64,000 bases of DNA from Thiemannella venezuelensis (GTDB lineage: Bacteria; Actinomycetota; Actinomycetes; Streptosporangiales; Streptosporangiaceae): assembly GCF_014203605.1 (NCBI RefSeq), contig NZ_JACHJJ010000015.1, positions 124,001 through 188,000 on the forward strand, in the 5' to 3' direction. The position numbers were made by a program, and so were the translations under genes. Under the pieces are notes generated by a model. It ran no database searches and had not been told where the DNA came from. It worked only from the letters and a program-made list of their open reading frames with translations. Positions within the stretch are counted from its first letter, which is position 1, and every line of letters begins with the position of its first letter. Positions 13,582 through 23,681 of the stretch are shown here, piece by piece.

Positions 13582-13639
13582 GAGGCGTCGCCGGGCACGC
13601 AGAAGACGGCGGGCCCGGCTTCGTCCCGGTGGCGGGCCT

Positions 13640-13678
13640 CCCGTCCCGGAAGGCCCGCAGCGGGCCTTCCGGGACGGG
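13640..13678. terminator. bidirectional terminator between VOC gene and parC
   Basis: A perfect 19-bp stem (13640-13658 with 13660-13678) separated by a single base, between convergent genes. It is among the strongest hairpins in the window. Confidence 0.8.
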
Positions 13679-13716
13679 ACCGCCGGCAGCGCAGGGCCCC
13701 CGGGCCGGGGAGCGCG

Positions 13717-21208: not shown

Positions 21209-21352
21209 ATGAGCGACACCGAACGTGACGACAGCTGGGTGCCGGACCCCGATGCCCCCGCCGACCAGCGGATGGAGGACACCGTCGGCAGCGCGGGCTC
21301 GCCGCTGGAGACGTCCTACCCGGACGCTTCTATGCAGATTCAATCTACATAG
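21209..21352 (+). CDS. short ORF, possibly a truncated gene
   Basis: 47 codons giving an acidic N-terminus (MSDTERDDSWVPDPDAPADQ) that ends abruptly in SMQIQST at a sudden A+T-rich stretch. It resembles the disordered acidic N-termini of small actinobacterial stress proteins, but no family can be assigned. The composition changes at about 21330, suggesting that the 3' end was replaced. Confidence 0.35.
   Translation: MSDTERDDSWVPDPDAPADQRMEDTVGSAGSPLETSYPDASMQIQST
21331..21351. repeat. 21-bp near-perfect palindrome at a gene junction
   Basis: TATGCAGATT-C-AATCTACATA is symmetrical with one mismatch and A+T-rich in a very G+C-rich background. It ends exactly before the broken ATPase fragment. 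It could be that gene's operator or a mobile-element end. Confidence 0.5.
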
Positions 21353-21465
21353 ATGGGAATCGAAATGGCGCGTGGTTTCGTCGGACGTGAGAGCGAACTC
21401 GATCTCCTGCGCAAGCGGTTGGACCGGGTCGCCGCGTCGGGGGCGGGGAGGCCGCCGGCGCCGGT
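21353..21465 (+). pseudogene. 5' fragment of an AAA/STAND-type ATPase gene
   Basis: The reading frame gives MARGFVGRESELDLLRKRLD followed by RVAASGAG, the typical N-terminus of archaeal-type (DUF234-like) or STAND ATPases just before their Walker A motif. It then loses similarity at about 21450 and runs into the tetR stop region. Nothing resembling the nucleotide-binding domain follows, so about nine tenths of the gene is missing. This is a deletion scar. Confidence 0.55.
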
Positions 21466-21468
21466 CCG

Positions 21469-22080
21469 TCAGCTACGGGTCTGCGCGTGCTCGTCCTTCC
21501 CCGGAGCCAGCCAGCTCGCGGTCAGCTCGCGCAGGCCCTCGCACCAGCGGGTGCGTTCCTGCCCGGCGGCGACCGCGTCGGCCGCGGCGTGCAGCGCCGC
21601 GAACAGCAGCTCGGCCGCGACGTCCGGGTCCACCGGTCGCAGCGCGCCTTCCTCGGCGCCGCGGCGGATGATGCGGGCGAGCAGCGTGGTGGCCGAGCGC
21701 TTGTCGTCGACGGGGCTCAGGGCTGCGGAGGAGTGGAAGACCGCCTGGTGGAGCTTGCCGCAGTCGACCGTGAAGCTGACGAAGCGGTCGATCTCCGCCT
21801 CCAGGACCGCCCACCAGTCCTGGGGGGTTCCGGCGCTCAGCCGGTCCCGCAGTGGGGCGCCGTAGTCGTCCATCAGCCGGTCGCGCACCGCGGCCAGCAT
21901 GTCCTCCCAGGATGGGAAGTAGACGTAGAACGTGCCCTTGGCCGTACCCGCCGCGGCCGTGACCGCCGCGGCGCGGTTGACGGGTTCGCCGTGCTCCCGC
22001 AGCACGCGGATCGCGGCGTCGATCAACTCGGTGCGCCGCTCGTCCGGCGAGAGCCTGCGGCGGGTACGGGGTTCGCTCAC
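21469..22080 (-). CDS. TetR family transcriptional regulator
   Basis: 203 residues from the GTG at 22080. The N-terminal DNA-binding domain reads RRTELIDAAIRVLREHGEP...AAAVTAAAGTAKGTFYVYFPSWEDML, a standard TetR helix-turn-helix. The C-terminal helical domain carries a likely ligand pocket. It starts 11 nt after the VOC gene and is probably co-transcribed with it, although TAATCT 8 nt upstream of the GTG could give its own leaderless transcript. The twin-operator palindrome ahead of the VOC gene is its obvious target. Confidence 0.92.
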   Translation of the reverse strand: MSEPRTRRRLSPDERRTELIDAAIRVLREHGEPVNRAAAVTAAAGTAKGTFYVYFPSWEDMLAAVRDRLMDDYGAPLRDRLSAGTPQDWWAVLEAEIDRFVSFTVDCGKLHQAVFHSSAALSPVDDKRSATTLLARIIRRGAEEGALRPVDPDVAAELLFAALHAAADAVAAGQERTRWCEGLRELTASWLAPGKDEHAQTRS

Positions 22081-22091
22081 ATCGGCCGAGA

Positions 22092-22517
22092 TTAGAGCAT
22101 CGCCTGCTTCACCCCCTCCGGAAGGCCGTAGATCTGGAACACGTAGCCGTCGGGGTCCCGGACGAACGCCGAGGGGATGCCGGGCGGGATCGTCTCACGG
22201 TTGACCAGCTCGGCGCCGGCGTCGAGCACCTGCTCCAGGGCAGTGTCGAACCGCCCGATGTCGGCGACCTCGAAGCCGAAGTGGTCGATGCCGCCGATCT
22301 TCCCGACCCGCTCCCGGTCGGCCTCGAACTCGACGGGAACGGACTCCTCGCTCACCGTGAACATGTCCCCGCCTCCCGGCGTGACCATGATGATCATCTT
22401 GCCGTCGAACTTGTCGACCACCCGGCGCATCTCCAGCGCCTGGCCATAGAAAGCCGCGGCCCGCTCGGCGTCGCTCACCCGCAGGTGAAGGTGGCGCACT
22501 CCGGAGAACATGGACAT
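22092..22517 (-). CDS. VOC family (glyoxalase/dioxygenase-like) protein
   Basis: 141 residues from the ATG at 22517, with AAGGA upstream. VRHLHLRVSDAERAAAFYGQ, GGIDHFGFEV and AFVRDPDGYVFQIYGLPEG are the two VOC halves; His and Glu/Asp in these stretches could bind a metal. The substrate is unknown. With the downstream TetR gene it forms a two-gene operon that is probably induced by the substrate. Confidence 0.88.
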   Translation of the reverse strand: MSMFSGVRHLHLRVSDAERAAAFYGQALEMRRVVDKFDGKMIIMVTPGGGDMFTVSEESVPVEFEADRERVGKIGGIDHFGFEVADIGRFDTALEQVLDAGAELVNRETIPPGIPSAFVRDPDGYVFQIYGLPEGVKQAML

Positions 22518-22547
22518 GTGAAGATCCTTTCCTTGTGTGGACCGGCC

Positions 22548-22590
22548 ACTAATGACCTCAGGTCAATAATATTGACCTGAGGTCATTAGT
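22548..22590. promoter_or_regulatory. 43-bp perfect palindrome (two nested operators) before VOC-tetR
   Basis: Two 20-bp arms (22548-22567 and 22571-22590) are exact reverse complements around AAT. Each arm itself contains the dyad TGACCT-N-AGGTCA, so the region holds two copies of one operator in mirror orientation. It ends 31 bp before the VOC start codon, as expected for autoregulation by the TetR protein. Confidence 0.7.
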
Positions 22591-22730
22591 CAATGAGGAG
22601 TCCTGCCCCGAACGGGATGGGGTTCCGGCGCGATCACCCGTCGCACATGCCGAGGGCGGAGCATCCGGCCACCGGTACGAGCCGGAACGTCACCGGGCTC
22701 GCGGAGGCGCGGACCGCAGAACGGCCACAG

Positions 22731-22758
22731 GCGCGGACGGCGTGCTCGCCGTCCGCGC
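22731..22758 (-). terminator. terminator after the PfkB kinase gene
   Basis: A perfect 12-bp stem (22731-22742 with 22747-22758) and a 4-nt loop lie 29 nt beyond the kinase stop. Confidence 0.7.
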
Positions 22759-22787
22759 AGAACCAGGCAGTGACCTGCCGGAGGGTG

Positions 22788-23681
22788 TCAGAGGCGGGGG
22801 CGGGCGCCGAGGTGGGCGATGGCCTTGGCGGCCAGGCGGTTGCCGGCGGCCAGCGACTCGGCCGGGGGCTTGCCCTCCAGCCAGGCCGGAAGGAAGCCCG
22901 CGGTGAAGGCGTCACCGGCGCCGGTGCCGTCGACCACGCGCTCCACCGGCTCGGCCGGGGCCTTGACCGGCTCGCTGCGGCTGTTGGTGTACCACAGCGC
23001 GCCCTCGTCGTTGAGCTTGATCACGACCTGCGGGAACCAGGCGGTGAGCACCTTGGCGGCGGCGGCGGGGTCGTCTCGGCCGGTCAGGACCTTGGCCTGG
23101 TCGGCGTTGGCGAACAGCAGCTTGGCGTTCTGGGTCCACTCCAGGAACGGCTCGGCGCCGGTGCGCTCCAGCGGGGCCGAGGAGGAGCAGTCGACCGAGA
23201 TGGACATCCCCGCCCGGCGGGCCGTCTCCAGGGCGGCGAGACCGGCCTCGCGGGAGCCCTCGTTGATCAGGGTGTAACCCGAGACGTGCAGGTGGCCGCC
23301 CTGGGAGAACAGGTCGCGGGGCAGGTCCTCGGGCGACAGCGCCGCGTTGGCGCCGGGGTCGGAGAGCATGGTGCGCTCACCCTTGTGGGTGACGAGCACG
23401 ACGCAGGTGCCGGTGGGACGCTCGGGGTCCATGACGAGACGGGCGTCAACGCCGTAGCCCATGAGCTCCATGTCGCGGTTGCGGCCGGTGATGTCGGCGC
23501 CCCGGCGGCCGATGAAGGCCACCTCCGCGCCCTCCACGGCGAGCCAGGAGGCGATGTTGGCCCCCGACCCGCCGCCGTGCATGGTGACGACGGCCGGTGT
23601 GTCGCTGGCCCTGGCCAGCGGGTAGCGAGCCCGCGCGACCGCGTCGGTCATGAGATCGCCCACCACGACCACCCGCGTCAT
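22788..23681 (-). CDS. PfkB/ribokinase family carbohydrate kinase
   Basis: 297 residues. The N-terminal VVVVGDLMTDAV, GGGSGANIASWLAVEGAEVAFIG (ribokinase signature 1) and C-terminal VVDGTGAGDAFTAGFL (signature 2, with anion-hole GAGD and the catalytic Asp) are all intact. It should phosphorylate a sugar or nucleoside hydroxyl with ATP; pseudouridine, ribose or a related ring is likely from the sequence type, but no partner gene (psuG, transporter) is adjacent to decide. The ATG at 23681 follows AAGGTGG. It is divergent from the acetyltransferase gene. Confidence 0.92.
   Translation of the reverse strand: MTRVVVVGDLMTDAVARARYPLARASDTPAVVTMHGGGSGANIASWLAVEGAEVAFIGRRGADITGRNRDMELMGYGVDARLVMDPERPTGTCVVLVTHKGERTMLSDPGANAALSPEDLPRDLFSQGGHLHVSGYTLINEGSREAGLAALETARRAGMSISVDCSSSAPLERTGAEPFLEWTQNAKLLFANADQAKVLTGRDDPAAAAKVLTAWFPQVVIKLNDEGALWYTNSRSEPVKAPAEPVERVVDGTGAGDAFTAGFLPAWLEGKPPAESLAAGNRLAAKAIAHLGARPRL

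Follow-up and report, generated by a model that had tools for sequence, protein, structure and literature searches.

What is a 43-bp perfect inverted repeat doing directly in front of a small VOC-tetR operon? The repeat lies at positions 22548 to 22590 of the window (the whole 64,000-nucleotide stretch of DNA analyzed here), exactly where the sequence-only reading had placed a perfect palindrome, and it is fully complementary. Its arms (22548 to 22568 and 22570 to 22590) flank a 1-nt center and measure 21 nt each; the proposed mirror is thus confirmed, with arms longer than the 20 bp first given. Given the base composition of the window (72.3% GC; pairing probability 0.30), chance would produce perfect 21-nt arms around a 1-nt center 6.5e-7 times in a stretch of this size and 8e-5 times in 8.18 Mb, in agreement with the rarity claimed for it. 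The repeat is also the longest perfect inverted repeat in the window (loops of 0 to 10). The runner-up, at 13639 to 13679, has 20-nt arms and a 1-nt center; these arms are G+C-rich and overlapped by mechanical open frames, and that repeat is possibly a terminator.

A probable promoter with two dyads

The mirror is composed of two 13-bp dyads of the TGACCTSAGGTCA type, 20 bp apart from start to start, together with a 7-nt linker and 5-nt flanks, both of which are mirrored as well. The TGACCT-N-AGGTCA dyad attributed to each arm is present as TGACCT-C/G-AGGTCA, the plus strand reading TGACCTCAGGTCA at 22553 to 22565 and TGACCTGAGGTCA at 22573 to 22585. A near-consensus promoter on the minus strand (TTGACT-16-TATTAT, 10/12) overlaps the mirror. 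It was the better of two promoter-like matches in a scan of positions 21300 to 22900, the weaker of which scores 9 and lies inside VOC. The -35 hexamer TTGACT occupies 22588 to 22593, and the -10 hexamer TATTAT (22566 to 22571) falls inside the linker. Candidate operator dyad 1 (22573 to 22585, TGACCTCAGGTCA on the minus strand) sits within the spacer between the two hexamers, and candidate operator dyad 2 (22553 to 22565, TGACCTGAGGTCA on the minus strand) sits just 3' of the -10 box, where it likely covers the expected transcription start.

Two genes follow on the minus strand. The first (22092 to 22517) encodes a 141-aa protein of the VOC/glyoxalase fold, assigned to the VOC superfamily by Pfam PF00903 (E 1e-11; 45.7 bits against a cutoff of 20.6). 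The protein reaches no NCBIfam cutoff; the glyoxalase I (lactoylglutathione lyase) model TIGR00068 gives 28 bits against an equivalog cutoff of 120. The second gene (21469 to 22080), which begins with GTG 11 nt after the VOC stop codon, encodes a TetR-family regulator of 203 aa. It had been described as the third gene of the operon; the gene order corrects this, with tetR standing second, directly after VOC. Upstream, a pfkB-family gene (22788 to 23681) has the same orientation as VOC-tetR, and the mirror is therefore shared with no divergent gene of that kind. At the other end of the operon, a plus-strand frame at 21353 to 21468 starts with MGIEMARGFVGRESELDLLRKRLDRV, by eye resembles the beginning of an ATPase-type gene, and breaks off at the end of tetR; it has no Pfam match and is possibly a recombination scar.

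Several features place the regulator in the TetR family. The TetR_N domain is recognized by PF00440 (E 1.2e-8; 35 bits against a cutoff of 24), and an AlphaFold2 model (10 helices, pLDDT 89.2) has the all-helical TetR fold. The promoter of its own operon carries a palindromic operator-like site, as would be expected of a member of this family. Foldseek matches the model to Rv0078, FadR, YvdT, and EthR2 with probability 1.00 at 17 to 22% identity. Because the structural neighbors (FadR proteins, Rv0078, and EthR2) are only 17 to 22% identical, no ligand can be assigned. Fifteen named NCBIfam TetR subfamilies (among FadR, BetI, FasR, RutR, and others) matched at E≤0.1, none at its cutoff; the best scored 33.3 against 200.

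Related loci with the twin dyad

This arrangement recurs in Planomonospora parontospora, again in front of VOC-tetR, and in Nonomuraea and two further genera, there in front of P450-tetR. We assembled 19 loci, comprising 18 genomes (of 345) with a TGACCYNRGGTCA pair and P. parontospora; 14 of the 19 come from one genus, and the loci are therefore not independent. Any TGACCNNNGGTCA pair was found in 30 of the 345 genomes, and the 12 left out have other centers and linkers of 2, 6, 11, 17, 18, 20, 22, or 28 nt. At three of these excluded loci (L019, L041, and L043), a more distantly related TetR is encoded close by (29 to 39% identity). As side observations, the TGACCNNNGGTCA pairs with other centers at L020, L021, L041, and L043 have linkers of 2, 6, and 11 nt and come from further genera of the family, G218 and G230 share an identical pair with a 2-nt linker, and G028 has an additional pair, of a different type, with a 20-nt linker.

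A TetR relative adjoins the site in all 19 loci, and each dyad keeps its own symmetry well (217 of 228 positions). In 17 of these loci, dyad 1 is preceded by TTGAC, at a distance of 8 nt in the VOC type and 9 nt in the P450 type. The best -10-like hexamers in the linkers of the P450 loci are weaker, and their spacing from the -35 element is ambiguous (16 to 19 nt). Counting the more distant relatives described below, dyad spacings of 20, 21, and 22 bp occur, so that the helical phase is only roughly constant.

The P. parontospora locus has a VOC protein 86% identical and a TetR 79% identical to those of the window, with the same operator upstream and a mirror broken by a single mismatch. In G097 (L070), the TetR is 73% identical and the operator is present; only VOC fragments follow it, tblastn recovering residues 112 to 140 alone. 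A stretch resembling the first VOC residues can also be seen there by eye. G097 and G273 (L065) are the two loci that have lost the -35 TTGAC while keeping tetR and the twin operator, and in G273 no orthologous P450 follows the operator.

The 15 P450 loci (13 from the genus group g4, plus G028 and G120) run from operator to P450 to tetR, and their TetR proteins are about 47 to 53% identical to that of the window. The g4 group was identified as Nonomuraea through its G249 locus, which is identical to Nonomuraea gerenzanensis NZ_LT559118.1 across 3579 bases. The closest solved structure to the P450 of L006, the sole P450 tested, is CYP164A2 (3r9b). In G099 (L007/L059), the P450 in front of tetR is split between two reading frames, through either a frameshift or a sequencing error, and the gene may be broken. 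A search of a plasmid collection returned one TetR relative, in an 11.85-Mb record of N. gerenzanensis filed as a plasmid.

More distant relatives were found in two loci on metagenome-assembled (MAG) contigs, whose assignment to Desulfobacteraceae rests on binning. There, a TetR 45 to 47% identical to that of the window is followed by an MFS transporter, and tetR lies directly 3' of a variant dyad pair. The region 5' of tetR contains TTGACT and the dyad-like sequences TGACC-N4-GTCA and TGAC-N4-GGTCA, 22 bp apart. The half-sites are different, but the overall plan looks the same. By eye, a weak -10-like hexamer can be made out between the two dyad-like sites.

Co-occurrence with TetR and competing readings

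If the twin dyad is the operator of this TetR, the two might be expected to travel together. Among 54 Nonomuraea genomes, with TetR called by protein profile (E≤1e-45) and the operator by DNA pattern, 14 have both, 39 have neither, one has TetR alone, and none has the operator alone (one-sided Fisher p 4.6e-12, uncorrected for relatedness). Two of the 39 TetR-negative genomes (G235 and G246) carry a dyad pair of another type, with other centers and linkers of 17 and 18 nt. The exception, G249 (L071/L085), retains only about the last 30 P450 codons before tetR, and no TGACCNNNGGTCA occurs in its 3579 locus bases or in 7573 bases of the N. gerenzanensis record. A protein search made independently of the operator found the TetR (E≤1e-30) in at least 5 of 200 genomes of the family, its own included, and all five carry the pair. 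In the class (394 genomes), at least two matched, its own genome and G097. These searches scored 15 candidates per genome in the family and 8 in the class, and both may miss members. One other genome of the same genus was searched and has no such TetR.

Site, promoter match, gene order, conservation, and co-occurrence with TetR, all read directly from the DNA, make it very probable that the twin dyad is the operator of the adjacent TetR, through which the protein would repress VOC-tetR from an autorepressed promoter. Comparison among genomes thus supports both the pair of mirrored operators and the autoregulatory control of VOC-tetR that had been proposed: the twin dyad appears to follow this group of TetR proteins even when they are partnered with another gene, and tracks TetR in Nonomuraea (14 of 15 against 0 of 39).

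How many dimers the promoter would hold is a separate matter. In a variant compatible with this core, each dyad would take a pair of dimers in the manner of QacR or CprB, for four dimers in all. Several TetR-family regulators do load two dimers per operator, CprB on opposite sides of a 22-bp site (PMC4150764), but here two full and separate 13-bp dyads lie 20 to 21 bp apart in all 19 loci, with 15 linkers of 7 nt and 4 of 8 nt, and we regard the four-dimer arrangement as unlikely.

The dyads could instead belong to another regulator, perhaps a global one, and not to the neighboring TetR. This reading draws on six further TGACCNNNGGTCA sites in the genome, where the reversed control pattern occurs three times. 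One of the six, C32:37577, is the only other place in the genome that comes within one mismatch of TGACCTSAGGTCA and lies inside an open reading frame; by eye, the product of that frame resembles the solute-binding protein of a transporter. The exact dyad, in contrast, occurs in the 8.18-Mb assembly only as the two copies in the mirror, unlike the expectation for a global regulator, and the association with TetR across the 54 Nonomuraea genomes also argues against another protein, which we consider very unlikely. The search for single dyad copies, suggested as a way to find a regulon, therefore yielded no further exact site and a single near match within an open reading frame. Nor is the sequence a widespread repeat: beyond the one exact pair in this genome, no TGACCYNRGGTCA pair with a linker of 0 to 30 nt occurs in the 353 class genomes outside the family (394 scanned, 41 of them from the family).

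The perfection of the mirror, which most draws the eye, is the least conserved feature. Whole-mirror perfection is found in 1 of the 19 loci, that of the window itself, and the dyads mirror each other exactly in 8. Pairing between the dyads across the loci (228 of 247 positions, shuffled mean 224.8) and between the flanks (54 of 95, shuffled 50.7) was reached by fractions of 0.15 and 0.10 of the shuffles, respectively. Because one locus in 19 is perfect and pairing is not clearly above shuffling, the overall symmetry looks like an incidental by-product, the dyads and the promoter geometry being the features that appear to be kept. A structural role, whether as a cruciform or, at the RNA level, as a hairpin or terminator separating VOC from the pfkB-family gene, is accordingly most improbable. 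A single strand can form a hairpin of 20 pairs (-21.1 kcal/mol for DNA, with z -10.2 relative to shuffles), and the mirror does occupy the interval from the pfkB-family gene end (22788) to VOC (22517). Conservation, however, falls on the individual dyads, the length of the linker, and TTGAC, and the single match of a terminator scan has a stem of 5 pairs and, as its tail, the -10 region ATATTATTGA. The cruciform suggested by the sequence-only reading finds no support in a symmetry that is not conserved.

A candidate repression mechanism and its counterparts

In the preferred reading, the site would be the promoter-operator of the two-gene VOC-tetR operon. TetR dimers would bind both dyads and, because these lie 20 to 22 bp apart, about two helical turns, would occupy roughly the same face of the DNA. 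With one dyad between the -35 and -10 elements and the other on the start site, bound dimers would stand on either side of the -10 box and obstruct RNA polymerase, and the repressor would control both VOC and its own gene. A small molecule, probably one handled by the VOC protein, would release it. That each dyad takes one dimer is less sure than the operator assignment itself. Of the two arrangements suggested earlier, binding side by side fits better than looping, for which 20 bp would be too short.

The TetR repressor of Tn10 is autoregulated and uses two operators, tetO1 and tetO2, that serve divergent genes. The present locus shares with it a regulator of the TetR family, a promoter region containing two distinct palindromic sites as likely operators, and predicted autoregulation; it differs in having a single one-way promoter, tetR as the last gene of the operon, and the -10 box in the linker. 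The operator of RutR, TTGACC-N4-GGTCAA, has similar half-sites, and the DNA-binding part of the regulator shows weak profile similarity to RutR, at 27.4 bits far below the cutoff of 368; the center of the dyad is shorter here. A search combining RutR, TTGACC, and TetR found no paper in the open-access literature.

CprB binds a single 22-bp operator with one dimer on each of its opposite sides (PMC4150764), the operator of QacR is a single 28-bp palindrome, and cooperative binding is reported for both (PMC4150764, PMC4482099). The likeness would lie in two dimers per promoter, here set on two nonoverlapping dyads about two turns apart. FatR, a TetR-family repressor paired with the P450 gene cyp102A3 and one of several repressors of P450 genes that fatty acids displace (PMC3814354), offers a parallel to the Nonomuraea relatives in joining a TetR-family repressor to a cytochrome P450 operon. 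The parallel concerns the pairing of genes, and among solved structures the L006 P450 is closest to CYP164A2, in contrast to the cyp102A3 pairing. Among the titles and abstract openings listed from the open-access literature, none describes this operator or TetR, which is weak evidence of absence.

Autorepression by a TetR protein through a palindromic operator is ordinary regulation, and what sets this locus apart is a layout that is unusually tidy and conserved. The layout would belong to a regulator lineage whose partner genes vary, from VOC to a CYP164-like P450 and, in more distant relatives, an MFS transporter. We raise, tentatively and as a possibility rather than an expectation, that this undescribed lineage with its fixed -35/dyad/-10/dyad design forms an exchangeable cassette, in which the partner (VOC, CYP164-like P450, or Desulfobacteraceae MFS transporter) is swapped and all partners answer one class of toxic small molecules. 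If true, two same-face dimers astride the -10 box would constitute a distinct, cooperative type of operator. Worth keeping is the conserved promoter-operator TTGAC-N3/N4-TGACCYNRGGTCA-N7/N8-TGACCYNRGGTCA, which accompanies one regulator lineage with differing partner genes. It provides a candidate operator for the uncharacterized regulator of the Nonomuraea P450 genes and a means of testing how the cooperativity of TetR dimers depends on spacing, and it may possibly serve as a sensor part for actinobacteria.
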